Shown here: in pieces, positions 1,634-64,000 of the stretch
Layout of the letters: each line of letters starts with the position of its first letter
Numbering within the stretch: position 1 is the stretch's first letter
Source of the DNA: Cyclobacteriaceae bacterium
GTDB lineage: Bacteria > Bacteroidota > Bacteroidia > Cytophagales > Cyclobacteriaceae
Assembly: GCA_028281285.1 (NCBI GenBank)
Contig: JANQKF010000020.1
Coordinates: 62,001 to 126,000 of the forward strand
DNA: 64,000 nt
Reading direction: 5' to 3'
Notes under the pieces: model-generated
Seen by the model: the letters and a program-made list of their open reading frames with translations, nothing else
Database searches by the model: none
What the model was told of the DNA's origin: nothing
Made by a program: the position numbers and the translations under genes

Positions 1634-3325
1634 TCACTCGGTCAAATTCCCAGTAATAAAATGCTTAAAGCTTTTGAAAAAACTGGCGTTTTGAGCAGAA
1701 TCAGTTTCGATTTCAAGGACTTTCGCCTCTTCGCTGCTATTATAGAATTCCTTAAGATGCTGTCTTAACTCGTCCCTGGATTTTGCATTGTAATAGGCAA
1801 ATCCAAAATCATGGCAAGTATTTTCAGCATTTAGTTTTTGCTGAGTCTCAAAATATTCTTCCAACTCTGGTTGGTTCGAAGGCCCTTCAATCATTCTGAA
1901 GATTCCTCCTGCATGGTTGTTCAAAATGACTATACGTAAATTTTTGAGATCGTAATTATGCCAAAAAGCATTACGATCGTAAAAGAAAGCCATATCTCCA
2001 GTCAAAAGTGTCACCGGTTTTTCGTTTGACAATGCGGCTCCGACAGCCGTGCTGTTGCTACCATCGATTCCGCTGGTGCCACGATTCGCAAATACGCTGA
2101 CACCTGTTTTATCCTTAAGACCAAGAAAATTAACATACCGAACAGCCATGCTATTAGCCAGATGAACTTGAGAATTGTTTGGAATTTCAGCCAACACTTC
2201 CTTGACTGCATGAAATTCTGAAAAATCACCTTGATCAAGGGCCTCATCAATTAAAGAAGCCGTTTTGTTATTCAGGCTTATCCATTGATTGGCAAAACCG
2301 TTTTCAGATTTACTCCCTTCGAGAGTTGAGAAAAAATCCTGAGGTTCCATTCTAATAATCTTGGTCACATTCTGAAGGGAATCATTTAGTCGTGCCGAGG
2401 GTTGTACGTGCCAATGCGTTTTTGGCCGATGTTTCCTAAAGAATCGTTTTAGATTCTTCGAAATAAATGATTTTCCTATCGTAATGAGAAGGTCGGGAGC
2501 CAGTGCCTTGTTTTGTTCATCCAATGACCCATTTAGAAAAATATCTTGATGAACAATGGCTTCTTCCACTTCATTGTGATTTGCTATGATATCAGCCAGA
2601 ACCGGAGTGTTGGTGTTTTTTGAGAAAGCGTCTAAGATATTCGTAAGCCTAAAATTATTCTCTAATTGACCTATGGCAACAAGCCGGTTTGATGATTCAT
2701 TCCATTGAGATCTAAGGGACTTCCATTCTTCCTCGGACAACGTCTGCCGTTGCTTAGTGTTCTCTATAATTCTGACTTCAGGAAAGTTGTAGACTTCTCC
2801 ATTTTGGGGGTAGAATGGTTCTCTGAAGGGAATATTAATATGGACAGGTCCTTTTGGCAAATCCATAGAGACTAGGAGGGATTCATTGACCATGCGGTTG
2901 CAATACCATTCAGAATCATCGGAATTTACCTCAGTCGGAAAATCGAAGCTTTTTTTGACATGTTTCCCGTATATATGGGATTGCATTATGGTTTGACCAT
3001 CATACTGATTAATCCATTCAGGCGGACGGTCTGCAGTCAAGATCAATAGAGGAATTTCTTGGTAGAAGGCTTCTGCAATGGCCGGTGCATAATTATAGGC
3101 TGCAGAACCAGAAGTACAGATGAGTACGACAGGCCGGCCTTGCTGCTGTGCTATACTCATACCGATGAAAGCAGCCGATCGCTCATCCGGAATTACTTTT
3201 GTTTCGATCCTTGGGTGTCTGGCAAAAGCAAGAGTGAGTGGAGCAGATCTGGAGCCAGGGGATATAATGGCAGTGGTCACACCATGACCTGCACACACAC
3301 TGGCTATATCTCTAATATGTTGCAA
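1634..3325 (-). CDS. menD: 2-succinyl-5-enolpyruvyl-6-hydroxy-3-cyclohexene-1-carboxylate synthase (MenD)
   Basis: This ThDP- and Mg-dependent enzyme joins 2-oxoglutarate to isochorismate, the first committed step of menaquinone synthesis. Visible features are the N-terminal SPGSRSAPLTLAF motif (residues 22-34), the conserved ThDP-activating glutamate in DERSAAF (E48), TSGSAAYN at 71-78, and the C-terminal ThDP/Mg motif from GDM (443) to NN (470). Length 563 is normal for the family. The start lies 2 bp after the menF stop, so the two are almost certainly cotranscribed and translationally coupled. Confidence 0.95.
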   Translation of the reverse strand: MQHIRDIASVCAGHGVTTAIISPGSRSAPLTLAFARHPRIETKVIPDERSAAFIGMSIAQQQGRPVVLICTSGSAAYNYAPAIAEAFYQEIPLLILTADRPPEWINQYDGQTIMQSHIYGKHVKKSFDFPTEVNSDDSEWYCNRMVNESLLVSMDLPKGPVHINIPFREPFYPQNGEVYNFPEVRIIENTKQRQTLSEEEWKSLRSQWNESSNRLVAIGQLENNFRLTNILDAFSKNTNTPVLADIIANHNEVEEAIVHQDIFLNGSLDEQNKALAPDLLITIGKSFISKNLKRFFRKHRPKTHWHVQPSARLNDSLQNVTKIIRMEPQDFFSTLEGSKSENGFANQWISLNNKTASLIDEALDQGDFSEFHAVKEVLAEIPNNSQVHLANSMAVRYVNFLGLKDKTGVSVFANRGTSGIDGSNSTAVGAALSNEKPVTLLTGDMAFFYDRNAFWHNYDLKNLRIVILNNHAGGIFRMIEGPSNQPELEEYFETQQKLNAENTCHDFGFAYYNAKSRDELRQHLKEFYNSSEEAKVLEIETDSAQNASFFKSFKHFITGNLTE

Positions 3326-3327
3326 AG

Positions 3328-4560
3328 TTAAGAAGTTGTTGCAATGACGTTAAGTAGCGTGTTGAACTTCATCTCTGTCTCTAGGAGTTCCTTTTCCGGG
3401 TTTGAGTCTTCAGTGACTCCGGCACCAGCATATAGCCAGGCTTTTCCATTAAAGAGTTTCATGCACCTCAGATTTACGTAAATGTTAGTGTTCTGATCAA
3501 TGTTCACAGGGCCCAAAAAACCACTAAAGAATTCACGATCAAAGCCCTCATTTTGAGAGAGAAACTCAAGTGAACTTTCTTTTGGCATGCCGGCAACGGC
3601 AGACGTTGGGTGCAATAACTCGAGCATAACAGTACCCAGCTGTGGGAAATTAGTGGCTTCCATATCCACTTCATAGTCCGTTTTTAGGTGTAGTAGATTG
3701 CCGGCAGCTATGGTTTTTGGTCCTCGTTCTTCGAATTCCCTCAATCTGATTTTTTTGAAACAGTTGATAATATACCGACTCACCATAGCTTGTTCCTCAA
3801 TTTCCTTCTGAGTCCAGGCGGTTTCACTTAATGGTTTGGTCTCATCTCTTTTTTGAGTGGCGGCTAAGGCTACCGTTTTAAAAGTTTTGCCTTTGACTAC
3901 TTCGAGCAATACTTCGGGTGTAGCACCCAACCATGAACCGACATCAGGGATGGAGACCAATGAAACAAACGCGCTCGGATAAGTATCACACAAATTCAAT
4001 AAGGCAGCAACTACGTCAAAATCTTCGGGTAGATTTATTTCTTTTCGTCTCGATGGTACTACTTTCTGAAAGTGGCCTGATTTAATTTTTTCAACGGAAT
4101 CACTTACTAAGTCCTTATAGTCAGGCATTTCTGACGTGACTCGTGGTGCTACAGCTTGCTTTTGAATTCCTTCCTGCCCGTTATCAAGATTCTGAAATAA
4201 GAAATCTACAAAGTCCTTTTCTTTGGACGACTTGATTTCATTATTGAAATCATAGTTACAACTCAGTTCTTCAAATCGAAAAGATAGATAGAAATCGTCC
4301 TTGATAAGTAGATTGGGTCGACTCAGATCGAATGGATTGAAGGTGAAACCTGAAACGGTTTCTTCTATGTCCAACTTAGGATTAGAAATCACCTCACTGA
4401 AACTGATTACCAGGTGAATTTCATCGCTCATAGGGAGTCTCCAAAGCGCGACCGGACATTCCAGCTCCATGGCTGTTGTCAAAAGGGATTTTAAAATACG
4501 TTCTTTCGGATAATTTTGAATTTCCCTTACCTCTACTCCAACTGAATTTTCTCTTCTCAT
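3328..4560 (-). CDS. menF: Isochorismate synthase (MenF/chorismate-binding family)
   Basis: A chorismate-binding-family enzyme of 410 residues that converts chorismate to isochorismate, supplying MenD. The C-terminal half holds the family hallmarks: KVVPSRR, GSWLGATPEVLL, the FFSGFLGPV segment, and the AGAGVTEDSNPEKELLETE end motif that carries Mg- and substrate-binding acids. The N-terminal ~120 residues are the variable part. Salicylate or anthranilate synthase relatives share the fold; the position between menI and menD decides for isochorismate synthase. It starts 1 bp after the menI stop. Confidence 0.92.
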   Translation of the reverse strand: MRRENSVGVEVREIQNYPKERILKSLLTTAMELECPVALWRLPMSDEIHLVISFSEVISNPKLDIEETVSGFTFNPFDLSRPNLLIKDDFYLSFRFEELSCNYDFNNEIKSSKEKDFVDFLFQNLDNGQEGIQKQAVAPRVTSEMPDYKDLVSDSVEKIKSGHFQKVVPSRRKEINLPEDFDVVAALLNLCDTYPSAFVSLVSIPDVGSWLGATPEVLLEVVKGKTFKTVALAATQKRDETKPLSETAWTQKEIEEQAMVSRYIINCFKKIRLREFEERGPKTIAAGNLLHLKTDYEVDMEATNFPQLGTVMLELLHPTSAVAGMPKESSLEFLSQNEGFDREFFSGFLGPVNIDQNTNIYVNLRCMKLFNGKAWLYAGAGVTEDSNPEKELLETEMKFNTLLNVIATTS

Positions 4561-50091: not shown

Positions 50092-50211
50092 ATGCTCTTT
50101 TCGATTCCGTTCATATAAAATACAATACCCTAATCCTCCATTTTGGGCAGAGTTTCCTAAATTTTGGAAGTTGAAAGTTTCCTGCTTTCACTCAAACCAA
50201 ATAAAAAAATT

Positions 50212-53200
50212 ATGAACAGACTGAAAAGCTCTTCAAGATGGGCATGGTGTCTTGCTCTCTTAATGTTGATTTCACTCACGTTAGATACGCAAGCCCAACG
50301 AAGAAATAGGCGAAATAATCAACCTACTCCTCCTCCAGTCGACCATAATGCTGAAGTTTATAAAGGCATTGAATGGCGATCTATCGGACCTTACCGTGGA
50401 GGTAGAGCGGGAACCGTTACGGGTGTTCCGGGTAAACCGCAATTATTTTACATGGGAGCCACTGGTGGTGGCGTTTGGAAAACCGAGAATGGTGGAACAA
50501 CCTGGCAGAATATCTCTGATGGATATTTTGGAGGTTCGATAGGCGCAGTTGCCGTAAGTGAATCAAACAATCAAGTGATCTATGTCGGCCAAGGTGAACA
50601 AACCGTTAGAGGCAATGTTTCTTCTGGTTTCGAAGGAATGTGGAAGTCTACCGATGGTGGAGAAAGCTGGACTAACGTTGGCCTGAATGATGCTATGCAT
50701 GTAGGACGAATCCGAGTTCATCCTGAGAATCCGGATGTTGTTTGGGTTGCCGTAATGGGTGATTTGTTTAAGTCTTCGGAGACTCGTGGAGTTTACAAGA
50801 CAACTGATGGTGGAAAAACATGGGAAAGAAAGCTATTTGCCAATGCCGATGCCGGTGCTGTAGATATTTCCATGGATCCGAATAATCCTGATTTCATGAT
50901 GGCCAGTACATGGAGAATTCGAAGAACCCCGTACAGCCTTTCTTCCGGTGGTGAAGGGTCCGCCCTTTGGAGATCAAAGGACGGTGGCGAGACCTGGGAA
51001 AACCTCAATGATAATACAGGAATGCCAAATGGAGATATAGGTATCATTGGTGTATCCATTTCGCCCGTGAATCCGAAGACAGTATATGCTATTATAGAGA
51101 ATAAGAATGGTGGTGTATTTAAGTCTACCAACGGTGGAGATACCTGGAGAAAAACGAACTCGGATCGTGCGTTAAGACAAAGAGCTTGGTATTATTCAAG
51201 AATTTATGCGGATACACAGGATGAGGATAAGGTTTACGTCATGAACGTAGGTTATCATACCTCAACTGATGGAGGAAGAACTTTCAATAGGAGAGGTGCT
51301 CCTCATGGTGATCACCATGACTTATGGATTGCTCCGGAAGATAATCAGCGACTCGTTATTGCTGATGATGGTGGAGCACAGGTGTCTTACGATGGAGGAG
51401 ACAACTGGTCTACTTATATGAACCAGCCCACTGCGCAGTTCTATAGGGTCACTACCGATAATCACTTTCCTTACCGAATTTATGGAGCACAACAGGATAA
51501 TTCGACTGTCAGAATTGACCATAGATCATTTGGTTTTGCTATAACTGAGAACAATTGGGAATCTACTGCAGGTGGTGAAAGTGCTCATATTGCTCCGCAT
51601 CCGACCAATCCGGATATTGTTTATGGTGGTAGCTATGGTGGATTCCTTTCAAGAATTGACCATGAAAAAGGGATTAGTAGAAATATTAATGCATGGCCAG
51701 ACAACCCAATGGGACATGGAGCGGAAGACTATAAGTATAGATTCCAGTGGAATTTCCCAATCTTCTTCTCACCCCATGATGAGAATAAACTCTACACTAC
51801 TTCGAATCATGTTCACGTGACATATAACGAAGGACAGTCTTGGGAAGTGATCAGTCCGGATTTGACCAGAGCAGAGCCTGAAAAACTTGGTAAATCAGGA
51901 GGTCCGATTACCTTTGACGATACCAGTGTGGAATACTATGCTACGGTATTCGCAGCGGTAGAATCACCTTATGAGAAGGATTTGATTTGGGCTGGTTCAG
52001 ATGATGGTTTAATCCATGTGACCAGAGATGGAGGCAAGAACTGGACGAATGTCACTCCTCCGGATATGCCAACCTACCTGATGATCAATAGTATTGATGC
52101 AGATCCATTTGTAAAAGGCGGAGCCTATATCGCAGGAACTCAATATAAAATGGGTGACTATCAGCCATACCTCTATAAGACCAAGGATTATGGACAAACC
52201 TGGACCAAGATCACTGGAGGAATTCCGAATGATCACTTCACAAGGGTAGTTCGGGCTGATCCTAAACGTCAAGGCCTTCTTTATGCGGGAACCGAAAGAG
52301 GAATGTTTATCTCTTTTGATGATGGAGCTTCCTGGAAGCCTTTCCAGATGAACTTGCCAATTGTGCCAATTACTGATTTAGCGATCAAGGAAGATAATCT
52401 GATTGCCGCTACACAAGGAAGAAGCTTCTGGATGATCGATGACTTGACTGTGCTTCACCAATTGAATGATGAAGTGGCTCAGGCAGACTTCCACTTGTTC
52501 AAGCCAATGGATGCCTATAGAATTGGTGGAGGTTTCCGTTTCAGAAGAGGTGGAGGAAATAACAATCTCTCCTTGCTCTATGGCTCCAACAAGCCTGGTG
52601 GCGCAGTGGTTTACTATAATATGAAAGAAGCACCGGCCAAAGGGACCAAAGTGAAAATGGAGGTATATGATCCACAAGGTGAACTGATCAAGTCTTATAC
52701 TCAGAAACCGAAGAAAGGCTTGAATATGTTTAACTGGAACATGATGTATGACAATGCAGAAGGTTTTGAAGGATTGATTATGTGGGCAGCTTCATTAAGA
52801 GGGCCAATGGCACCTCCGGGAGAGTACACAGTAAAGTTGAATGTTGGTGACGATTCTCAGGAACAGAAGTTCAAGTTGCTTAGAGATCCACGCTACCCAT
52901 CAACGGATGAAGATCTGATCGCTCAATTCAATTTCCTTATCAAGGTTAGGGACAAAGTGACCGAGACTCACCAGGCGATCAAGGATATTCGTTCAGCCAG
53001 AGAGCAGATGAAAGTCTTGACCGACAAAATCAAAGGCGATGATAACTACAAGGACGTTGTAGATGCTGCCAAGGAGCTCGATAAGAAGATGACCGAAATA
53101 GAGGAGACCTTGTACCAGACCAAAAACAGGTCAGGGCAGGATCCTTTGAACTTCCCGATTCGTTTGAACAATAAGCTTGCCGCCTTAACCGGAGTTGCCG

Positions 53201-53415
53201 GTAGTGGTGCGTGGAGGCCTACAGCACAGGCTGAGACGGTGCGTCAGGAACTGACCGGTCAAATTGATGAGCAGTTACAGAAACTGGAAAAGCTTATGCA
53301 AAACGATGTTCCGGCCTTTAATGATTTGGTGAAGCAGAAGTCGATTGATGCAGTGATCATCAAAAAGAAGAAAGACAAAAAGGTAGATACAAGTACATTA
53401 CCACAGAATAATTAA
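50212..53415 (+). CDS. VPS10/Asp-box (BNR) domain exported protein
   Basis: About 1067 residues with signal peptide (WAWCLALLMLISLTLDTQAQ). Residues ~35-780 carry at least ten Asp-box strands of type S-x-DGG-x-TW (KTENGGTTW, KSTDGGESW, RSKDGGETW, KTKDYGQTW, ISFDDGASW), forming one or two multi-bladed propellers of the sortilin/VPS10 type. The C-terminus (about 880-1067) is helical and charged, ending in KKKKDKK. Often named glycosyl hydrolase in databases, but no catalytic residues can be shown. The ATG at 50212 gives the signal peptide; the 16 codons before it do not belong. Confidence 0.85.
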   Translation: MNRLKSSSRWAWCLALLMLISLTLDTQAQRRNRRNNQPTPPPVDHNAEVYKGIEWRSIGPYRGGRAGTVTGVPGKPQLFYMGATGGGVWKTENGGTTWQNISDGYFGGSIGAVAVSESNNQVIYVGQGEQTVRGNVSSGFEGMWKSTDGGESWTNVGLNDAMHVGRIRVHPENPDVVWVAVMGDLFKSSETRGVYKTTDGGKTWERKLFANADAGAVDISMDPNNPDFMMASTWRIRRTPYSLSSGGEGSALWRSKDGGETWENLNDNTGMPNGDIGIIGVSISPVNPKTVYAIIENKNGGVFKSTNGGDTWRKTNSDRALRQRAWYYSRIYADTQDEDKVYVMNVGYHTSTDGGRTFNRRGAPHGDHHDLWIAPEDNQRLVIADDGGAQVSYDGGDNWSTYMNQPTAQFYRVTTDNHFPYRIYGAQQDNSTVRIDHRSFGFAITENNWESTAGGESAHIAPHPTNPDIVYGGSYGGFLSRIDHEKGISRNINAWPDNPMGHGAEDYKYRFQWNFPIFFSPHDENKLYTTSNHVHVTYNEGQSWEVISPDLTRAEPEKLGKSGGPITFDDTSVEYYATVFAAVESPYEKDLIWAGSDDGLIHVTRDGGKNWTNVTPPDMPTYLMINSIDADPFVKGGAYIAGTQYKMGDYQPYLYKTKDYGQTWTKITGGIPNDHFTRVVRADPKRQGLLYAGTERGMFISFDDGASWKPFQMNLPIVPITDLAIKEDNLIAATQGRSFWMIDDLTVLHQLNDEVAQADFHLFKPMDAYRIGGGFRFRRGGGNNNLSLLYGSNKPGGAVVYYNMKEAPAKGTKVKMEVYDPQGELIKSYTQKPKKGLNMFNWNMMYDNAEGFEGLIMWAASLRGPMAPPGEYTVKLNVGDDSQEQKFKLLRDPRYPSTDEDLIAQFNFLIKVRDKVTETHQAIKDIRSAREQMKVLTDKIKGDDNYKDVVDAAKELDKKMTEIEETLYQTKNRSGQDPLNFPIRLNNKLAALTGVAGSGAWRPTAQAETVRQELTGQIDEQLQKLEKLMQNDVPAFNDLVKQKSIDAVIIKKKKDKKVDTSTLPQNN

Positions 53416-53435: not shown

Positions 53436-53469
53436 AAAGCCCTCTTGATTTTATCAGGAGGGCTTTTTT
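53436..53469 (+). terminator. Rho-independent terminator after the VPS10 gene
   Basis: 9-bp stem AAAGCCCTC/GAGGGCTTT with a 13-nt loop and a T run, between convergent genes. Its arm touches the HTCS stop codon. Confidence 0.85.
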
Positions 53470-56400
53470 ATGCCTCTTGGTGGAAGTATTCACCTGGGCT
53501 TTTACCGAACCGGTTTTTATAGAGCCTTGAGAAATAATTCACAGAGGTGAACCCGACAGCCATAGAAACCTCTTGTACCTGTTGATAGTCCTTTTGCTCA
53601 AGATAGGTTCGAGCCATTTGAAGACGTATTTCTTTTAGATAGACCCCAGGCGTATAACCAGTCACTGACTTTAATCTTCTCTGAAACTGCCGTTGGCTCA
53701 GGCCCATTTTTTCGGCAATGGAAGCAATGTTGAAATCAACTTTGTGAACATTTTCCTGGGTAAGCTGCTTCACTTTCAGTAACCACTCTTCAGCTGGTTC
53801 CTCCAATTGATTGTTGTGATTATATTCAACGTCACTGACCAAATTTGCTACCCTCTTTGCTTCTGAGACCTTGAGCTGGTTCTTAATTCTGGCTTTCAGT
53901 TCTTCAACAGAGAATGGCTTTACCAAATAGTCATCGGCACCTAGTCGGAAGGCCTCCAGTTTGTCTTTATCAGCGGTTCTGGCCGTAAGCATAATCACAG
54001 GAATTGTCGTCAGATTTTCGTCATTTCTAATCGTTTCTAACAATTCCATCCCATCCATTTCAGGCATCATCATGTCTGAAATGATGATATCCGGTTTATG
54101 TTCAACTTCGTGTAGTACTTTCAGGGCGTCAGCTCCATTGGCAGCCTCAATCGTATGAAATTGATTTTGAAGGTTTTCCAGGATAAATGATCGCATATCC
54201 AGATGATCTTCCACAACCATAACATGGTTACGTTTTTTGGCCGTAATGGATACTTTGGGCTTTTCAGTTTTCGATTTTCCGTTTGTGGCCTCTTTTGGAA
54301 GCATGGATGCGTTGATATTCGGAAGTCTTAAAGTAAATGCGCTACCGGTCCCTTGTTCGCTGGCTACGGTCAAGTCTCCGTCCATGGCCAAGGCGAGTTC
54401 TTTACTTAACGCCAGTCCAATACCAGTGCCTCCACTTGCTGCCCTCTGAGAATCTTTGGTTTGAAAAAATCGATCGAAGACATGCGGGAGGTCCTTTTCA
54501 GAAATTCCAATTCCCTGGTCCTCCACTTTGGCTATTAACTCCATGGAGTCGATTTCGATTGTCATTTCAATACTACTTCCGGACGGAGTGAATTTGAATG
54601 CATTTGATAACAGGTTATTCAGGATCCTTTCAGTCATATCAACATCAAGGGCAAAACCAGAGTCTTCTCCTTTAAAGGTGTACACAAACCTGATGTCTTC
54701 CGTCTGTGCTTTGGATTCGAAGTTGTTGTGAATCCGAGAGAAAAATTGACTCGGACGAATGGCCTTATAGTGGGGGGTAATCTTCTTGTTCTCTAGTTTA
54801 GTCAGATCAAGGATTTCTTCTACCAATTTTTCGATCTGCTCACTATTCTTTTTTACCCTAATTAGGTCTTTTCGACCTTGTTCATCAATACTGGAGTTTT
54901 TGATAAGGTTTCGAATTGGAGCAACGACAAGGCTTAGTGGTGTTCTCAATTCATGTGATACATTGGCAAAGAATTTGGATTTCAATTCATCCAATTCTTT
55001 CAATTCATGTGCTTGTTCCTGAATGGTTAGTGTACGTTTATCAATCTCACTTTCAAGAAATTCCTGGCGAACCAATAAGGTGCGCTCTCGCACTTTTATA
55101 ACCACATAAGCAATTATCAGAGCCAGGAGGATGATTGATACGATAAACCAGGTTTTTAAGTAAAACGGCCTTAAAACGAAAACCGGAATGGACAGAACCT
55201 CTGACCATAAACCCTGAGATGCCTGACCTCTAAGCTGGAGGTTATATTTTCCATAAGGTAAGCCATTCACCCTGACAAAAGGCTGGTCAATGAAATTCCA
55301 CTCTTGATCGATTCCTTCGATCTTATATGAATATCGGTTCGATTCGGAATCTAAGTAGTTAAGAAGGCTATAATTAATGTTGAACCCAACTTGACTGGGT
55401 TGAAGAACGATTTGATCTGAGTCCAGGAACCCCGTCATTCCGTTGATATAAAGACCTGTCTTCTTAGATTGTGTCTGGAATCCCGTGACTATCAATTGGA
55501 CGTTCGTGTCATCTGGTCTTACAAAATCACTTGGATTAAAGGTGGTTACCCCGTTTAAATGTCCAAAGAATAGTCTTCCATTCTTGGCACGGTAATGAGA
55601 CGTTGTATTAAACTCTTCCTGGTATAGCCCATCTCCTTTAAGGTACGTGGTAACGGAAAAACCAGAAGGGTCAATTTGCATGATACCTTTATCACTGGGA
55701 ACCCAAAACCTGCCTTGATCATCTTCATAAATGGCATAGGCCGTATTGTCTGAGAGGCCATCTCTTTCAGTGTATTGATGATATTCGCCTGTAACTGAGT
55801 TCAAGCGAATTAAACCACCTCCTTTGCTGGCAAGCCATAAGATACTGTCACCAATAGAATGGACATGTGCAATTGAATTGTGTGGTATATAGGAACCCTT
55901 TTCGCCTTGACTATGGAAACGCTGAATCACGTTGTATTGATAGTCCATTTTGTAGAGGCCTGTCTGAGACGCAATCCAGATTGCATTGTTGGTTTCGTGA
56001 AACCCCACAACCATTGCCGTGCGAAGCTCTTGGAAGGGGCCATAGTTTCTGAAAAGCTTCATCGTGCTATCTGAGGGTTCGAGGTAGGAGATGCCATCGT
56101 CTTTTCCCAACCAGAGTCGGCCGTTTCGATCGATATAACTCGACCAGTGGATTAACATCCCTATCTTTTTTGGATCTTGATTATTCAGCGCATGCTGGTC
56201 TTCACTGTACGTGAAGTTACGTTCCTCACCGGTTTTGGGGTTTAGTCGAGTGAGTCTGTTACCCTCGTCAGTATACCACAGGTTTCCGTTTGATCCCTCA
56301 ATCAAGGACAAACGTTTACTGCTTATCTGGTCGCCCCAATTGCCTTCAACATAAAAATCGGAATTCGGGCCAAATTCTTCGCGTTCACCCGTGTTTAGAT

Positions 56401-57553
56401 TTATCCTGTAGGACCTACCCAGACCGTTGGTGTAGAGGTTATTATCGTTATCAACAAATAAACCTCGTGTTCCATAGCCATTGCTGCCAAAGGTTCGAAT
56501 GTCGGTAAGATAATTTGTGAATTTCGACCGTTGTAAACCAATAATGTTCACTCTGCCGTTGTGATTGGTCCAACCGTTCCCTAGGCGATCGAAGAAAACG
56601 GGTTTGGGATAAGAAAAAAAACCTTCATCTCTTTGAAACCGATGTATTTCATTCAGTGATTCATCATAGATATAGGTGTTTTTCTCTTCATCATCATACC
56701 AGATATGACCTTGATTTGGATCGAGTCCAATTAACCTTTTTTTGTGCCAGAAAGCCTCCTGAGAAGACCCGAACATGCGGTTGGTAGAATAAATAACCCC
56801 TACCGAAACCTTATTGACTTTTTGATTAGTTAGGAATTGCCGGTAATAGACATTATCAAATGGGTCCAGACCATAAAAATAAGCTTCGTAGTGATCATCA
56901 ACCTGGATGTTCTGAAGTTCGTTACCATCAGGATTAATTAAACGTATAATGCCTTTTTCACTTAGCCACAGTCCTCTCTCGCAAGCCTCAAGATCGTGCA
57001 TTTGAAGCGATACCTTGATGATGAGCATTGGCAGATCGGATTGTGTAGGGTTATACCTAAAGATTCCTTTGTCTGTAACTATCCAAAGATCGCTTGATCC
57101 TAAATGTGAGGTGATACCCTGCACAGACGTGGCGTCAAATGGTAGTTGACCATTGAAGAATTTGTCCAGAGCTATGGCCTTTCCCTGGAGTGGATCAAAA
57201 ACCTGAAGGGCCGAGCGATTCCCCAAATTAGGATCTTTTCCATAAAGCCAGAGATTATCGTTTGCATCTTCGGCATACCATCTTACATAATTGGAAACGA
57301 GTTGATTGTTTTCCTGGGTATACGTTTTGACTTCATTGCCGTCATAGCGGTTTAACCCAAAATCACTACCCATCCAGATTAGACCGTCCTTGTCTTGATA
57401 GAAACCATTGATACTTCTACTTGTCAATCCATCCTCAATTCCGATGGACTTGATCTTCACAGAATATTCCTGAGAATAGATCGGTTTCCATAGCGAGAGA
57501 ATTGCCAATAAAAGCATACCATACAGTCTTCTATTTCTTCGCTCTTTTTTCAC
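53468..57553 (-). CDS. Hybrid two-component system regulator (HTCS) with AraC output
   Basis: About 1361 residues. A signal peptide is followed by a periplasmic sensor of Reg_prop propeller repeats (GLIWMGSDFGLNRYDG and many like it), a Y_Y_Y domain before one TM (about 810-835), HisKA (FANVSHELRTPL), HATPase_c (NAFKFTPSG, DQGIGIS, GGTGIGLALS), REC (ISDMMMPEMDG phospho-acceptor Asp, LVKPF) and an AraC HTH (GLSQRQFQRRLK ... GFTSVNYFSRLYK). It senses a ligand outside and controls transcription directly. The GTG at 57553 gives a good KKERRNRR n-region; a TTG at 57589 and an ATG at 57517 are alternatives. No polysaccharide-utilisation genes adjoin it. Confidence 0.93.
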   Translation of the reverse strand: MKKERRNRRLYGMLLLAILSLWKPIYSQEYSVKIKSIGIEDGLTSRSINGFYQDKDGLIWMGSDFGLNRYDGNEVKTYTQENNQLVSNYVRWYAEDANDNLWLYGKDPNLGNRSALQVFDPLQGKAIALDKFFNGQLPFDATSVQGITSHLGSSDLWIVTDKGIFRYNPTQSDLPMLIIKVSLQMHDLEACERGLWLSEKGIIRLINPDGNELQNIQVDDHYEAYFYGLDPFDNVYYRQFLTNQKVNKVSVGVIYSTNRMFGSSQEAFWHKKRLIGLDPNQGHIWYDDEEKNTYIYDESLNEIHRFQRDEGFFSYPKPVFFDRLGNGWTNHNGRVNIIGLQRSKFTNYLTDIRTFGSNGYGTRGLFVDNDNNLYTNGLGRSYRINLNTGEREEFGPNSDFYVEGNWGDQISSKRLSLIEGSNGNLWYTDEGNRLTRLNPKTGEERNFTYSEDQHALNNQDPKKIGMLIHWSSYIDRNGRLWLGKDDGISYLEPSDSTMKLFRNYGPFQELRTAMVVGFHETNNAIWIASQTGLYKMDYQYNVIQRFHSQGEKGSYIPHNSIAHVHSIGDSILWLASKGGGLIRLNSVTGEYHQYTERDGLSDNTAYAIYEDDQGRFWVPSDKGIMQIDPSGFSVTTYLKGDGLYQEEFNTTSHYRAKNGRLFFGHLNGVTTFNPSDFVRPDDTNVQLIVTGFQTQSKKTGLYINGMTGFLDSDQIVLQPSQVGFNINYSLLNYLDSESNRYSYKIEGIDQEWNFIDQPFVRVNGLPYGKYNLQLRGQASQGLWSEVLSIPVFVLRPFYLKTWFIVSIILLALIIAYVVIKVRERTLLVRQEFLESEIDKRTLTIQEQAHELKELDELKSKFFANVSHELRTPLSLVVAPIRNLIKNSSIDEQGRKDLIRVKKNSEQIEKLVEEILDLTKLENKKITPHYKAIRPSQFFSRIHNNFESKAQTEDIRFVYTFKGEDSGFALDVDMTERILNNLLSNAFKFTPSGSSIEMTIEIDSMELIAKVEDQGIGISEKDLPHVFDRFFQTKDSQRAASGGTGIGLALSKELALAMDGDLTVASEQGTGSAFTLRLPNINASMLPKEATNGKSKTEKPKVSITAKKRNHVMVVEDHLDMRSFILENLQNQFHTIEAANGADALKVLHEVEHKPDIIISDMMMPEMDGMELLETIRNDENLTTIPVIMLTARTADKDKLEAFRLGADDYLVKPFSVEELKARIKNQLKVSEAKRVANLVSDVEYNHNNQLEEPAEEWLLKVKQLTQENVHKVDFNIASIAEKMGLSQRQFQRRLKSVTGYTPGVYLKEIRLQMARTYLEQKDYQQVQEVSMAVGFTSVNYFSRLYKNRFGKSPGEYFHQEA

Positions 57554-57702
57554 GTGTAAAAGTAGAGTTGAAAGGGATAGTTCTCCCAATTCTAATTATT
57601 ACAAGTGTACAAAATCTTGGAGTAAATGCCTGAAAATCCACGGTTGTAAAAAAATGACTAAAAAATCTTAAATCATTATTAATCAATTAGTTAAATCTAA
57701 TG

Positions 57703-57736: not shown

Positions 57737-57838
57737 GAAGCGGATTTATACCAACACTAATAAGTAGTGAATCTACCTTGAATTCACCTGCCAAATAGAG
57801 CATAACTAGTGCTTCACCTTAATAAAAGTGATCTACTA

Positions 57839-60800
57839 ATGAATACTATTATGACTTTTAAAAATGGTTCTTCCTTGAAAAGGTTATTGTTCCTTTTCAC
57901 ATTATTTTTTGCTTTCGGCTTTACTGCAAAAAGAATTGATTTAGTAGAGCCCTCGAAGCAAGCAGGTACAGCGACTCTATCTGCTGGTGATGTTGCCATT
58001 ATTGGACTTAGTGGAAGGGATGAGGATGAGTTTTCCTGGGCACCCTTTGTAGATTTGGAAGCTGGTGAAGTAGTCTACTTTACCAGCGCTTCTTATTTCA
58101 ATGGTGAGTTCAAGAAGAGTGGGAGCTTTTTGTTAAAGTATACCACCCCGGCAGAAGGGCTCAGGGCTGGAACGGTAATGACTGTTTTTGACGATTGCAA
58201 AATCTCAGGAGAAGACTGCGATAGAGAGGGAGATTACACAATCGTGAAAAATACCATGTTTGGTTCACGCTCTGACGCAACTGTGAGAACTAGTGGAGAT
58301 CGCATTTTTATCTTTCAATCTACCGATGTAGAAGATGGTGATTTTGGCAAAACACACTTGGTACCGATTTTTGCAGTCACCGCGCATGATGACGAGTGGA
58401 AAACGATCAGTGAACTTAAGGGTACGCATCTTTTCCCCGGACTTACCGATGGTGTTAATGCTGTGGCTGTTGGTTCATCTTCCTTCACTAGCCCGGCTCG
58501 AACCAACGTACGATATAGAGGTACGGCAATAGGTTCTCGTGATGTATGGCTTGCTAATGTGGCCAATGCAGCGAATTGGGAGGATAACAGCAATACGGTT
58601 TACAGCACCTGGACCCGGCATGGAGTGTTTCAAAATTTCATCGACCCTGATAACCCTGTGGCAGATAACAAAGAGGATTCACCCTCTGCACCCACCGTGA
58701 CCTCGACTCCCATCACCAATATTCTCGAAACGGAATTCTACCAATATCTACTTGATGCTGTCGATGCTGAGGGTGAAGCATTTGAGTTTATAGGTCGAGA
58801 GATTCCGGATTGGTTAAACTTTGGTCCGGGAGATGAGCCCCAGGTGAGTACATTCTTAACCAGAAAACAGCTTGAAGGAAGTAAGACTAATCCTGATTCC
58901 AGGGAGCCTAAGCTGATCGCTGCTGATAAACACGGTAATATTTACATGGCTGATGTAGGGCACCATGTGATTCGAAAGATCAGTCCGGATCAAAAGGTGA
59001 TCACTTTTGCAGGTTCAGGTGATAATAAGTATGAAAATGGCAAAGGCATAGAGGCAAGTTTTGTGGACATGCAAGGGATTGCCGTGGGGCCTGACGGTTA
59101 TATATATGTCTCGGAAGCAGGTAAAGGTGATGATGGTAAGATCAGTCATCGCATTCGGAAGATTTCTCCTGAGGCTGAGGTGACCAATTTTGTAGGTAGG
59201 GAATTCACTGGTGATATGGATTTCCATATTGGTACTTCAGCCACTTTTGATACGCCCATGGGCCTTGCATTTGACAGCAAGGGAAATCTATATGTGGCAG
59301 ACTCAAAGAACCACAATCTTCGAAAAGTGACTCCAGATGGAGTGGTAACCACATTTGCAGGAATAGGAGAAGATCCTCCGCTGACCCGTGAGTCCGGAAT
59401 TGTAGACGGTTTTGCCTCTATCGAGTATCTGGCTGTAGATTCAAAAGACAATATTTATGTAACAAGTAGGGCCGAAAACAGAGTCCTGAAAGTCAATCAG
59501 GAAGGTATAATTGAGATTTTTTCGGGAGCTGCTGGAAAGGGTGACACAGAAGATATTGACGGTACAGAGCAATTTATAAAATACGATGAGCCACTGGGTA
59601 TTGCCATAGACCGTGATGACAATGTATTTATCACGGATATGAATATGAAGGTCAAGCGTATTGGCCCTGGTGGTAAGACAGTCAGGCACATTGCAGGAAA
59701 TGGTGATTGGGAAGTCAAGGATGGTGTTGGAAAGGAAGCTGCATTTCAGACCCCGTTTTCCCTGGCTTTTGATGCATCAGGAAACTTGTTGGTGGCCGAA
59801 TCAAGAGGGCATAACTTAAGAAGACTGTCTGGCGCAGCGCTTACAGGTGATCCTTTGGGCCAGGTTGGAGTGCATGATGTTTCCATTGAAGTGAAAGATG
59901 CTCAAGGCAATAGCCGTTACCATGATTTTCAGATCACAGTTGAAGACGCAACTCCACCAGTTGTTCTAAATATTCTGAGGCAAGATCCTGAGGAAGAGCA
60001 ATTAACCGGTAGTGAGGCAACCTTTAGAGTTGTGTTTGACGATGAGGTTATCAATGTTGATCAAACCGATTTTAGTATCAAGGCCGATGGAGCGGAGGGA
60101 GCTATCAACTCCGTTACAGCGGTTGATACCAAGACTTATGATGTAAAAATCACCGGAGTAAAATTTAAACTTCTCCTTGACCTCGAACTAAATAGCAGTT
60201 CCGATATTGAAAATATTGCCGGATTGAAAATCGAAGAATTTCATATTTCGGAAACAGAAGAAACCTATATAGGGCCTAATTCGGCACCTGCTTTTTCCAC
60301 TGACCCAGTTACGGATGCTGAGAATGATGAAAAATATAAATACCAAATCGGAGTATCAGATTTGGACAAGGAGAGGGTAGGTGTATTTGGGGTGACTATT
60401 CCTGATTGGCTGGAATTGGAAGTCTCTTTTGGGAACACCGAAGTTTCAGGTTTACCAACAAAGCTCTTTGGCGTTGGTATAGCCAGCGATGGAACAGTCT
60501 ATACAGGATCGGTTAATAATGACTTTGCAGGTGTAAAGAAAGTGCTGTCTGATGGTACTTCTGAGGACTTTGTGGGAAGTGTACCAGGTTTTGAGATTGG
60601 AACCGGTGCTGCGGCCCAGTTTGAAGGAGTGGATGATATTGTCGTTGATAAGGATGGCAATTTATTCATTGCTGATGCTGAAAACCGGTCGATTAGGAAA
60701 GTGGATACCAGTGGAAGTGTGACCACATTGATTGGAGACGGGCCGGGAAATGGTCCACCAACGCTTAAAGATGGATCCCTTGCAGAAGCCAACATCAAGC

Positions 60801-63800
60801 AAGCCTATGGCCTGGTATTGAATGATGAGGGTGATTTGTTCTTTACAGATGCCGGGTTCTATAAGGTGAGAAAGATTTCGGCCGATGGTCAGGTGACTAC
60901 GTTAGTGGGTAATTCAAGTGGATTTAGCGATGGTTTAGGGAATGAAGTTCGTTTCGGACATTTGAGAGGGATAACGATGGATTCGCAAGGAAACCTCTAT
61001 GTAGTAGATCAAGGAAATCATAGTATAAGAAAGATTGCGCCAGACGGAGCGGTTACGACCCTGGCAGGTAATGGTTCAAAGGGTGCAACGAATGGAAAAG
61101 GGGAGAACGCCCGATTCAATTCACCCACCGGAATCACTATCGACAAGGGAGGCAACCTTTACGTGACTGATACAGGTAACGGCAAGATCAGAAAGGTGAC
61201 TCTCGATGGGATAGTGACTGATTTTGAGCTTTCGGGAATCAACCTTGATGCTCCTGAACGAATAGCCATGACACCTAATGGTGTTTTTTATATCACTGAT
61301 TCCGGCTTACAAAAGTTGGCTCCATCCAGCTTTACATTAACAGGAACACCTTCAAACCTAGCCGGAGGTATTTCGGTAGAACTGGTAGCTGTAGACGGAA
61401 GTGGAGCCAGCACTACACAAAGCTTTACCATCTTGATTCCGGATGGTGACCCTCCAGTGTTTACTTCTGACAAGACCGAAATTGTTGAGGAAAACATTAC
61501 TGGTATAGTCCACACGGTAGTTGCGGAAGACCTTGCAACACTCACTTACGCGCTGGGTACAACAAAGGATGAAAGTCTCTTTAGTATTGATCAGAATACC
61601 GGTGAGGTCAGCTTCCTGGAAGCCCCTGATTTCGAAAAGCCGACAGACGCCAACGCAAATAATGTCTATGAAATAGAAGTAATTGCTGATGATGCCACAT
61701 TCCAGGTCAGTCAAGTAGTGCTGATCAAAGTGGGTAATCTGAATGATCCACCAGGGTTTACCTCTACACCCATCACAGAGATAAAGGAGTCGCAGCTTTA
61801 CAACTATGAACCAACTGCCCAGGACGATGATAACTCAGTGTTGATTTACTCTTCCATCACTCTTCCGAATTGGCTCAGTTTTGAAAAGAAATTGGATACT
61901 GAAGTCGCTACCCATGCTGGTTCTGGGGTCGCAGGGAAGAATAATGCTGGTCTTGAAAATGCCAGTTTTGATCATCCTTATGATCTTGAATTTGACGTGA
62001 ATGGAGATCTGATTGTGGTGGATCGAGAAAATCATATGATTCGAAAAATAGGGACGACCAGTGCAAGTACATTGGCTGGCAATGGTATTGCAGGGTTGAA
62101 AAATGATAATGGTATTCAAGCTCAGTTCAATGAGCCCTCTGGAATCACTGTTTCATCAAATGGTACCATTTACATAGCAGATGCAGGCAACCATGTGATT
62201 CGTAGCATTAGCACTTCCGGGGACGTGAAGACTTATTCCGGAACAGGAGAATCGGGATATGAAGAGGGCGCACGGCAACTATCTAAGTACAATGAACCGG
62301 CTGGACTTGCATTTTGGGGAAGTGATTTATACGTAGCAGATAAACAGAATCATGTGATTCGTAAAGTCACTACAAGTGGTTCGAGCACCTATGCTGGCAC
62401 AGGAACGGCTGGTTTCATGGATGGTGAGTCTGGTTCAGCACTTTTCAATCTTCCTACTGACATAGAGTTCGATTCGAAAGGTAATCTCTATGTGGTTGAC
62501 TCCGGGAACAAAAGAATTAGAAAAATTAGTACAAGCGGCCAGGTCACAACTGTAGTAGGGAGTGATCTCATTGGGCATACTGATGGAACAGAAGGGGTAT
62601 TGGACAGCCCGTTGGGTATAACAATCGATGATGATGACAATCTATTTTTCACAGAGTCAGACACTCATATCGTTCGAAGGCTAAGCAGTGATGGAGTACT
62701 CTCCGCATGGGCTGGAAAAGGAGGCTCAGGCGTCACAGATGGTGAGTCTGATGTCGCAACTTTCAATACTCCACGAGGCCTTGCTGTGGACGATTCTGGT
62801 GTGTTGTTCGTTGCCGATGAACTCAACCACAAGATCAGGAAAATAACAAGCAGCGAAGGTGATTATCAATTGATCGGAGATCCGATCGGACAAATTGGTG
62901 AACATATGGTAAAACTGACTGCATCAGATGGGAGAATTACAACCGAACAAGAATTCATCATCAAGGTGATTGACGGGGTCCTCCCCAAGTTGGTAAGCGT
63001 TAAACGGCATAGTCCGACAACAGAAAAACTCACTAATGGTATAGCCACTTTCCAGGTGATATTCAATGAGGATATGGATGACATTGAGGCAAATGATTTC
63101 ATCTTAAAAAATGAAAACTCTGGCCAGGTCACCTCGGTCGAAAAAATTTCCTCGACAACCTTCAATGTGATTATAGGTGGTATTGGGGATAATACCATAG
63201 TCGAACTTGACTTCCATCCCGACCATGATATAAGCGATATATCCGGCAATACCTTGAACCGATTGCTTGAGGCTACCAATGGCCCCAATGAGTCATTTAT
63301 TGGCCCTGATCCGTTAACCATTGTTTCCATTTTGAGGCATGATCCAACGGATCAGCAGTTAGTCGGAGATCAGGATGAGGTCGTTTTCAAAGTGAAGTTC
63401 AGTGAAGAAGTTCAGGGCATTGCACTTAGCGATTTTGAGGTTAAAGCGGGAGGAGCTTCGGGAACGGTGACAGCCATTAATCAGCCTTCCCCTCCAATTG
63501 AGTTTGAAATTACGGTTTCAAATGTGGCTGGTGGGAAACCGTTGGATCTGGATATTATTGCAACTAATGGCATAAAAGATAATGATGGTAATGCCTTGAG
63601 TTCCACGGATCCCGATGATGAACAGACCTATATTGGAGTTAATATAGCACCTGAAATTACCTCCACCAATGTGATCAATGTTTATCGAGGTGAGACCATA
63701 GACTATGATGTAAAGATTTCTGATCTGGAGGACGATAATTTCGAATTGACGATTGAAAATATTCCGGATTGGCTCACTTCTGAAGCTCAATTTGAGTATT

Positions 63801-64000
63801 TAGTCACGACACTTTCACAAATAAGTGACCCCACAGATGAACAAGGTAGGACCAAAACACATGATGATCCGATAGGCCTGACCCTGGACTCCCAAGACAA
63901 CCTCTATGTCATCGATCAGGAAGACGAAACCATTAAAAAAATTACTCCAGAAGGAGAGGTCTCTACCTATGTGAGCTATAAAACCATAGAAGACATAGAT
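57839..64000 (+). CDS. Giant secreted NHL-propeller/Ig-like protein, 3' end outside window
   Basis: An uninterrupted frame of 2054 codons runs to the window end, with ATG at 57839 (alternative ATG 57851). A signal peptide (LLFLFTLFFAFGF) is followed by: an N-terminal domain of unknown family (about 28-270, GDVAIIGLSGRDEDEF); four Ig-like (He_PIG-type) units split by NHL propellers (units from about residue 283, 815, 1306 and 1937); SwmB-like Ig domains with FxVxFxExxxxxxxxDF (about 708-814, 1717-1823, 1826-1937); and one cadherin-like domain (about 1207-1305). Each complete propeller has six NHL blades (GNLYVADSxNHxIRK type). A T9SS C-terminal signal would lie outside the window. Probably an adhesin or surface binding protein; inference. 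Confidence 0.9.
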   Translation, partial: MNTIMTFKNGSSLKRLLFLFTLFFAFGFTAKRIDLVEPSKQAGTATLSAGDVAIIGLSGRDEDEFSWAPFVDLEAGEVVYFTSASYFNGEFKKSGSFLLKYTTPAEGLRAGTVMTVFDDCKISGEDCDREGDYTIVKNTMFGSRSDATVRTSGDRIFIFQSTDVEDGDFGKTHLVPIFAVTAHDDEWKTISELKGTHLFPGLTDGVNAVAVGSSSFTSPARTNVRYRGTAIGSRDVWLANVANAANWEDNSNTVYSTWTRHGVFQNFIDPDNPVADNKEDSPSAPTVTSTPITNILETEFYQYLLDAVDAEGEAFEFIGREIPDWLNFGPGDEPQVSTFLTRKQLEGSKTNPDSREPKLIAADKHGNIYMADVGHHVIRKISPDQKVITFAGSGDNKYENGKGIEASFVDMQGIAVGPDGYIYVSEAGKGDDGKISHRIRKISPEAEVTNFVGREFTGDMDFHIGTSATFDTPMGLAFDSKGNLYVADSKNHNLRKVTPDGVVTTFAGIGEDPPLTRESGIVDGFASIEYLAVDSKDNIYVTSRAENRVLKVNQEGIIEIFSGAAGKGDTEDIDGTEQFIKYDEPLGIAIDRDDNVFITDMNMKVKRIGPGGKTVRHIAGNGDWEVKDGVGKEAAFQTPFSLAFDASGNLLVAESRGHNLRRLSGAALTGDPLGQVGVHDVSIEVKDAQGNSRYHDFQITVEDATPPVVLNILRQDPEEEQLTGSEATFRVVFDDEVINVDQTDFSIKADGAEGAINSVTAVDTKTYDVKITGVKFKLLLDLELNSSSDIENIAGLKIEEFHISETEETYIGPNSAPAFSTDPVTDAENDEKYKYQIGVSDLDKERVGVFGVTIPDWLELEVSFGNTEVSGLPTKLFGVGIASDGTVYTGSVNNDFAGVKKVLSDGTSEDFVGSVPGFEIGTGAAAQFEGVDDIVVDKDGNLFIADAENRSIRKVDTSGSVTTLIGDGPGNGPPTLKDGSLAEANIKQAYGLVLNDEGDLFFTDAGFYKVRKISADGQVTTLVGNSSGFSDGLGNEVRFGHLRGITMDSQGNLYVVDQGNHSIRKIAPDGAVTTLAGNGSKGATNGKGENARFNSPTGITIDKGGNLYVTDTGNGKIRKVTLDGIVTDFELSGINLDAPERIAMTPNGVFYITDSGLQKLAPSSFTLTGTPSNLAGGISVELVAVDGSGASTTQSFTILIPDGDPPVFTSDKTEIVEENITGIVHTVVAEDLATLTYALGTTKDESLFSIDQNTGEVSFLEAPDFEKPTDANANNVYEIEVIADDATFQVSQVVLIKVGNLNDPPGFTSTPITEIKESQLYNYEPTAQDDDNSVLIYSSITLPNWLSFEKKLDTEVATHAGSGVAGKNNAGLENASFDHPYDLEFDVNGDLIVVDRENHMIRKIGTTSASTLAGNGIAGLKNDNGIQAQFNEPSGITVSSNGTIYIADAGNHVIRSISTSGDVKTYSGTGESGYEEGARQLSKYNEPAGLAFWGSDLYVADKQNHVIRKVTTSGSSTYAGTGTAGFMDGESGSALFNLPTDIEFDSKGNLYVVDSGNKRIRKISTSGQVTTVVGSDLIGHTDGTEGVLDSPLGITIDDDDNLFFTESDTHIVRRLSSDGVLSAWAGKGGSGVTDGESDVATFNTPRGLAVDDSGVLFVADELNHKIRKITSSEGDYQLIGDPIGQIGEHMVKLTASDGRITTEQEFIIKVIDGVLPKLVSVKRHSPTTEKLTNGIATFQVIFNEDMDDIEANDFILKNENSGQVTSVEKISSTTFNVIIGGIGDNTIVELDFHPDHDISDISGNTLNRLLEATNGPNESFIGPDPLTIVSILRHDPTDQQLVGDQDEVVFKVKFSEEVQGIALSDFEVKAGGASGTVTAINQPSPPIEFEITVSNVAGGKPLDLDIIATNGIKDNDGNALSSTDPDDEQTYIGVNIAPEITSTNVINVYRGETIDYDVKISDLEDDNFELTIENIPDWLTSEAQFEYLVTTLSQISDPTDEQGRTKTHDDPIGLTLDSQDNLYVIDQEDETIKKITPEGEVSTYVSYKTIEDID
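58685..59959 (+). repeat. Split Ig-like domain with inserted NHL propeller, unit 1
   Basis: The first Ig half ends at IPDWLNF (about residue 322). A ~330-residue insert of six NHL blades follows, opened by QVSTF (residue 335), which looks like the closing outer strand. The Ig domain resumes at LTGDP (residue 668) and ends in DFQITVEDATPP. Confidence 0.75.
60281..61456 (+). repeat. Split Ig-like domain with inserted NHL propeller, unit 2
   Basis: First half ends at IPDWLEL (about residue 854). Six NHL-like blades follow, the first and last more divergent. The Ig domain resumes at LTGTP (residue 1167) and ends in SFTILIPDGDPP. Confidence 0.75.
61754..62977 (+). repeat. Split Ig-like domain with inserted NHL propeller, unit 3
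   Basis: First half ends at LPNWLSF (residue 1342). VATHAGSGVAG follows as a propeller outer strand, then six NHL blades. The Ig domain resumes at LIGDP (residue 1678) and ends in EFIIKVIDG. Confidence 0.75.
63647..64000 (+). repeat. Split Ig-like domain with inserted NHL propeller, unit 4 (cut by window end)
   Basis: First half ends at IPDWLTS (about residue 1975). An outer-strand-like YLVTTL and then a first NHL blade (DNLYVIDQEDETIKKI) follow before the window ends. Confidence 0.65.

Follow-up and report, generated by a model that had tools for sequence, protein, structure and literature searches.

Can a β-propeller be held inside an immunoglobulin-like (Ig-like) domain rather than beside it, and if so, what would the arrangement be for? 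The question is raised by a giant open reading frame (ORF) near the end of a stretch of 64,000 nucleotides, here called the window, from a Cyclobacteriaceae bacterium (GenBank assembly GCA_028281285.1, contig JANQKF010000020.1, positions 62,001 to 126,000 of the forward strand). An initial annotation, made from the letters alone, had read in its product four repeats of one order of parts: the first half of a He_PIG-type domain, six NHL blades, and the second half of the He_PIG-type domain. That order is found in all four units of the window protein, and the nested fold that it implies, with the propeller inside a single split Ig domain, is almost certain. Taken as a whole, a nested module with projected, ligand-binding propellers is likely to be the best explanation of these proteins.

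One He_PIG domain split around a six-bladed propeller

The giant ORF runs past the end of the window and comprises 3,821 codons in the genome, the first 2,064 of them within the window (Table 1). Pfam places in its product NHL repeats (PF01436, 212 bits), several bacterial Ig families, a cadherin domain and Por_Secre_tail, and its nested units do not stand back to back, since about 100-230 residues of other domains lie between them. Among best Pfam stretches at E<=0.01, none falls in the roughly 290 residues N-terminal to unit 1 (57809-58687, +). The fourth unit, rightly described as cut by the window edge, is complete in the genome, which holds 16 nested units in four proteins: four in the window protein, and five, six and one in proteins of contigs C20, C38 and C10. 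Across these 16 units the insert measures 301-349 residues; the four lengths in the window protein are given in Table 1.

The two Ig halves belong to one domain, as had been proposed. With the insert removed, the joined halves of all 16 units match the Pfam family He_PIG (PF05345), with E<=0.1 throughout and a best value of 1.7e-12, a score being available individually for unit 1 of the window and the other 15 being known as matches within that threshold. Joined unit 1 reaches 25.9 bits (cut-off 24; 1.4e-5) over model positions 2-95 of 96, which is full-length membership of the family above its curated cut-off. Chance resemblance of the halves to He_PIG is ruled out by these joined matches. 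A genome search with He_PIG, in which the units were left unjoined, returns part-matches at several unit ends, few of them above the cut-off: back-half matches, about model 54-96, at several unit backs, and a front-half match, 1-56, at the front of one unit. Half-model matches of this kind are those of model 1-56 at C10:7330-7470 (24.3 bits) and of model 54-94 at C28:123316-123435 (22.2 bits, below the cut-off of 24).

Hosts of the same family also occur unfilled. A profile of the joined halves finds, among solved relatives, a fucoidanase (6dlh/6dms) and a platelet adhesin (4m00/4m03), and the fucoidanase has the short stretch PDWLVLTQNSDDTWRLSG at the position that the propeller occupies in the nested units. 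An unfilled He_PIG host, ANWLSFDASTRTFSGTP, lies inside the C38 protein itself (63.4 bits); the C1 protein of the same genome has two full-length unfilled matches, one of 52.2 bits and one, short of the cut-off, of 22.1 bits, and one of the two reads DWLSLVQEDGYTAVLVGDP; and in genome G478 (locus L237) an unfilled He_PIG domain, PDWLTLSDISTPILEGTP (27.0 bits, model 3-95), stands immediately after a filled unit. The nested units share their host domain with intact He_PIG members but carry 301-349 residues where the latter have a short hairpin turn. Filled and unfilled hosts, once side by side, make a clean natural case of domain insertion.

The inserts themselves are six-bladed NHL propellers. 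By eye, the alignment shows six blade cores in each insert of the window protein, as the initial annotation had counted them in the complete ones, and the PF01436 score, matches in PDB, the strand pattern of unit 3 and the d-strand directly after PxWL all speak for this class of propeller. Structure prediction, which had been proposed as a check, was run for unit 3 of the window, and AlphaFold2 folds both Ig halves and a closed six-bladed propeller into one confident model (predicted local distance difference test, pLDDT, 94.0; predicted template modelling score, pTM, 0.87). In this model two long unbroken strands, 43-57 and 362-377, span Ig domain and propeller, and the residues after PNWL, which had been taken for the strand that closes the ring, form a d-strand continuous with an Ig strand. 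In 120 units of the genus the insert is 301-365 residues long (median 332.5), the P of PxW is present in 120 of 120 and the W in 116 of 120; their consensus has six anchors at an exact 54-position spacing, a regularity that is in part a product of the profile, which was itself derived from six-bladed units. Two divergent units, L235 and L237, which come from outside the genus, have six blades by eye. Among the 50 Foldseek matches listed, no PDB entry lies above TMq 0.73 and no viral model above 0.53, which does not imply a novel fold.

Further, the two halves co-vary. Mean-field direct-coupling analysis (DCA) was applied to 133 full units (120 of the genus and 13 others), with 30 within-genome shuffles of the C-terminal halves as control. 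Fourteen of the top 20 pairs between N- and C-terminal half fall on one antiparallel band, against 3.2 expected and a mean of 5.5 in the shuffles (highest 10), and the top coupling, between positions 26 and 397, has a strength of 3.92, whereas no shuffle exceeds 2.36. When the C-terminal half of each unit is paired with the N-terminal half of the next (87 pairs), the result is shuffle-like, with a top coupling of 1.92 and 6 of 20 pairs on the band. D26 and D397, which lie on opposite halves, are kept together as Asp in 120 of the 133 units, while in 9 both are replaced and in 4 just one is (Fisher p 8e-11, kinship uncorrected); their setting, D-x-D-G-D plus D, suggests a metal site shared by the halves. 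The arm lengths of the ribbon that would join the two domains likewise co-vary (Spearman 0.46, Pearson 0.30). None of these statistics is fully corrected for kinship; at the level of sequence, the co-variation ties together the two halves of one and the same unit.

Each unit would then be one folded module, in which the closing blade of a six-bladed NHL propeller is opened at its c-d turn and the propeller is set into the turn of a β-hairpin (PxWLxx / xxLxG) of the He_PIG-type Ig domain. Both turns would be replaced by a continuous two-stranded ribbon, so that Ig domain and propeller are rigidly joined at two points. Judging from strand lengths and co-variation, strands 43-57 and 362-377 of the unit-3 model probably pair as this ribbon.

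Distribution of the nested units

A scan of other genomes for the same order of parts, which had been suggested at the outset, finds the units in the genus, in four other genera of the family and in a genome of another family. Thirteen of the 19 genomes searched in the genus carry 120 non-redundant full-length units, a lower bound counted on the fetched stretches, and 13 further units lie in genomes outside it. In a search of relatives (59 genomes) full-length matches are confined to the genus; a sample of the family (245 genomes) adds seven genomes from four other genera; and in a sample of the order (390 genomes) at least one genome of another family, G681, has a full-length match, with a protein of 1,315 residues in which two units stand four residues apart. 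Samples of the class (395 genomes, E<=1e-80) and the phylum (395, E<=1e-30) gave no full-length match outside the window's own genome; in the class, phylum and order samples at most four candidates per genome were scored, the order matches being those listed, and rare or divergent units could therefore be missed. Likewise, none of the 1,539 ORFs of loci L065-L163, L196-L199 and L201-L203 has, next to a propeller match, an N-half and a C-half match (each E<0.1) at a distance of 250-450 residues; among these loci are the best 80 of 151 relatives from the contig scan, and records near the window's genome may be absent there. The nested arrangement is thus not special to the window protein: other proteins and genomes carry the same units, and with 16 in its own genome, 120 in the genus and 13 elsewhere they are far beyond chance. 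Misassembly is ruled out by the recurrence of the same units in many genomes.

Propellers without Ig halves are widespread. In an ORF of Planctomycetota (L065, at 3076) the propellers are close to those described here (52% identity), and a near-complete match to the joined-Ig profile lies downstream of them at residues 781-860, that is, end to end. As to the layout of the units, 81 neighbouring full-unit pairs in one ORF are separated by 0-5 residues in 9 cases, 98-130 in 48, 198-234 in 9 and more in 15, and one ORF may hold up to 10 full units. At the other extreme, a protein of 575 residues (L227 of G655, 1944-3668, -) consists of one nested unit, a tail for the type IX secretion system (T9SS) and, by eye, a signal-peptide-like start. 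Read from its sequence, this protein is a minimal version of the nested module, and as a natural protein it is small enough for structural and binding work. The C10 protein is also single-unit. Giants with nested units recur at shared neighbourhoods (L211, L224 and L193; L218, L220, L222 and L223), beside an M28 peptidase gene (by Pfam for the L033/L224 copy, by eye for the others) or a succinate dehydrogenase-like block (by eye).

Role of the propellers and the adjoining regulator

The C-terminus of the window protein, beyond the window, bears a T9SS type A sorting domain above both curated cut-offs (TIGR04183, 31.7 against 23 bits; PF18962, 40.6 against 27 bits), as type A cargo does, and export by type IX secretion may be inferred from it. 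A chain of Ig, cadherin-like and nested modules could then hold several propellers away from the cell, with the Ig domain as a split-domain handle on the bottom rim of each propeller and the top face (d-a and b-c loops) free for a ligand that would be specific to the unit. Such a ligand-projecting role is probable, on the grounds of analogy, the divergence of the loops and the two-component neighbours.

Each unit of the window protein has its own single counterpart in the orthologue from genome G009, with propeller identities of 75, 68, 70 and 65%, and the 16 units of the window's own genome average 36% mutual identity. Identity among window units is lowest in the d-a and b-c loops, at 22% and 19%, and to the orthologues these loops are 65% and 68% identical; for the bottom loops the figures are 35% and 24% between window units and 66% and 53% to the orthologues. 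A rival explanation takes the propellers for mechanical spacers or protease-resistant bulk, which double attachment locks in a long stalk and whose divergence serves only to prevent misfolding among neighbours. The presence of up to 10 full units in an ORF would suit spacers, as would the low identity between units of one protein over the whole propeller and not in the top loops alone, but each window unit is conserved with its own orthologue, d-a and b-c loops included (65-68%), and a protein with just a single unit and a sorting tail would be hard to understand as a spacer; this explanation is unlikely. Even less likely is that the propellers are enzymes, lyase or lactonase-like, on a split-Ig scaffold: two Pfam models, SGL (66.5 bits; cut-off 26.3) and Vgb_lyase (90.7; cut-off 50), and the NCBIfam model ScyE_fam (117.6; cut-off 80) score high enough to point that way, but these models share the propeller repeat and their scores may reflect repeats only, and ScyF remains far under its cut-off (162 against 350). 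An end-to-end chain of circularly permuted Ig domains, in which the C-terminal half of one unit pairs with the N-terminal half of the next and nothing is nested, is rejected as highly improbable, for although 9 of the 81 neighbouring pairs abut and G338 has similar propellers end to end with complete IPT/TIG domains (9 TIG stretches), single-unit proteins (L227, C10) leave no other partner, other domains separate the window-protein units, the co-variation lies within the unit and not between neighbours, and in the model of unit 3 a single propeller is folded together with both halves.

The nested module would probably be expressed in part under the control of a hybrid two-component system (HTCS), encoded divergently beside the giant gene, and from this gene order the regulator is likely to act on that gene. 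The pair recurs in G009 (L178) and G007 (L173), another HTCS adjoins the C20 giant (L032), and the window's own genome has seven Y_Y_Y matches. HTCS proteins in Bacteroidota usually sense glycans, and the nearby sensor hints at glycan-related ligands. More widely, 8 of 39 unit-bearing ORFs have an HTCS-like ORF divergent beside them (in L177 the sensor part only), 14 of the 39 being 5'-open in the examined stretch, where contig pieces may split genes. In added upstream stretches, L208 has a further HTCS-like ORF, which runs in the same direction, and L219 has a kinase-like ORF. Response-regulator genes lie beside unit-bearing ORFs in C10 and, together with a kinase, in L213 (both by Pfam), and, from a look at the sequence, in L210, L216 and L221.

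Several observations weigh against the nested, ligand-projecting module. As to the fold, the well-modelled structure is that of unit 3 alone, and the pairing of the ribbon strands is only inferred, because that model is known by its strand lengths and not by coordinates or predicted aligned error. A tandem model of unit 2, linker and unit 3 has a pTM of 0.50, with the N-terminal half of unit 2 at pLDDT of about 45-51 and the linker below 50; of the chain of disc-in-handle modules that the initial annotation had envisaged, the nesting therefore stands and the geometry of the chain is unsupported. Of the 120 inserts, 97 have exactly six matches to a blade profile, 18 have fewer and 5 have more. 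There is much noise in the DCA (band z 0.19, against a mean of 0.067 and a highest of 0.152 in the shuffles), and with the matching 87 units the true pairing has a top coupling of 3.4 with only 8 of 20 pairs on the band, so that the band count alone is weak at this depth. As to the role, the loop pattern fits separate, retained specificities of the units but is only suggestive, because the strands are conserved more to the orthologues (77-83%) than the top loops; and most unit-bearing ORFs are without an HTCS beside them, many without a response regulator either.

The features of the window are collected in Table 1. The HTCS is adjoined by a gene for a Sortilin-Vps10/BNR repeat protein (50164-53415, +), and downstream of the giant gene lie those for a GHL10-type putative glycosidase and a CBM9-like protein (L031:13148-14257 and L031:14221-15342, both -).

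Table 1. Positions in the window of the regulator gene, the giant ORF and the parts of its nested units
Feature	Position	Strand	Remarks or basis
Hybrid two-component regulator (Reg_prop, Y_Y_Y, HisKA, HATPase, receiver, AraC-type HTH)	53468..57589	-	Divergent to giant gene
Giant ORF	57809..64000	+	Signal-peptide-like N-terminus (by eye); T9SS type A sorting domain at C-terminus beyond window
Unit 1, extent	58688-59950	+	
Unit 1, He_PIG first half, ending IPDWL	58688..58816	+	He_PIG joined match
Unit 1, insert, closing d-strand and six NHL blades, 341 residues	58817..59839	+	Pfam, alignment
Unit 1, He_PIG second half, LTGDP to FQITV	59840..59941	+	He_PIG joined match
Unit 2, extent	60284-61447	+	
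Unit 2, He_PIG first half, ending IPDWL	60284..60412	+	He_PIG joined match
Unit 2, insert, six NHL blades, 308 residues	60413..61336	+	Alignment
Unit 2, He_PIG second half, LTGTP to FTILI	61337..61438	+	He_PIG joined match, genome search
Unit 3, extent	61748-62980	+	
Unit 3, He_PIG first half, ending LPNWL	61748..61876	+	Joined match, structure model
Unit 3, insert, six NHL blades, 331 residues, structure modelled	61877..62869	+	Alignment, model
Unit 3, He_PIG second half, LIGDP to FIIKVI	62870..62971	+	Joined match, structure model
Unit 4, extent	from 63647	+	
Unit 4, He_PIG first half, ending IPDWL	63647..63775	+	He_PIG joined match
Unit 4, insert, start only (328 residues in full)	63776..64000	+	Remainder and second half just beyond window, complete in L031

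Comparison with known systems

Among known systems, the NHL propellers of SOQ1, a bacterial teneurin-like protein and NHLRC2 (PDB 7djm, 9ifo, 6gc1) are near to those described here; the window protein has no YD shell. In teneurins, according to passages of PMC5851990, the propeller follows an FN-plug domain in sequence. The Pfam and NCBIfam matches of the window protein include no YD/RHS family, only the TEN_NHL propeller model. For the TcB-TcC complex (YenB/YenC2), a figure legend in PMC5851990 has a propeller of this type inserted in a YD-repeat domain, which is likewise a propeller inserted in another domain, with a host of YD repeats and not an Ig sandwich. Ig-like domains and NHL-type propellers also occur together in the same phylum. 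In the giants of G338 and G330 (L196 and L197), from another family of the phylum, the propellers alternate end to end with IPT/TIG domains and are not nested (TIG by Pfam in G338/L196 only, 9 stretches); the Bacteroides ovatus entry PDB 4hw6, which bears the name of an IPT/TIG domain protein, presumably has an end-to-end layout.

In the RTX adhesins AhLap, FrhA and MpIBP, as described in the main text of two papers (PMC12077191, PMC10865825), Ig-like split domains project ligand-binding domains off axis with their termini side by side, and the heads are carbohydrate-binding, PA14, peptide-binding, RTX-like or vWFA domains, three different ones in AhLap; the word 'propeller' is absent from both main texts. 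The window protein resembles these adhesins as a giant multi-domain protein with a second domain inserted in a split Ig-like domain, and its units, like split-domain modules, have the insert within one Ig-like domain with adjacent termini. It differs from them in secretion, the RTX adhesins being type I secreted and the window protein bearing a T9SS type A sorting domain and no RTX family among its matches, in having an NHL propeller as head, and in repeating the same unit. No publication on a propeller within a split Ig domain came up in the literature searches, whose reach did not extend to most subscription papers or to AlphaFold DB. The nesting of binding domains in split Ig domains is already known from the RTX adhesins; the propeller as insert is the part for which no precedent was found.

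By analogy, the module is most likely a T9SS-exported member of the split-domain, ligand-projecting type, with the propeller as head. The fullest version of this picture, in which propellers are spliced hairpin to hairpin into the split-domain adhesin module, set out as arrays of rigid, specialised discs on T9SS surface proteins and switched by adjacent hybrid glycan sensors, is a tentative one, with a little less than an even chance of being right as a whole. The comparison extends to the type IX giants of a Bacteroidota-type genome a rule known from the type I RTX adhesins, that of a binding domain projected from a split Ig domain, and it offers a means of picking out candidate ligand-binding domains in surface proteins that are very large and poorly annotated.

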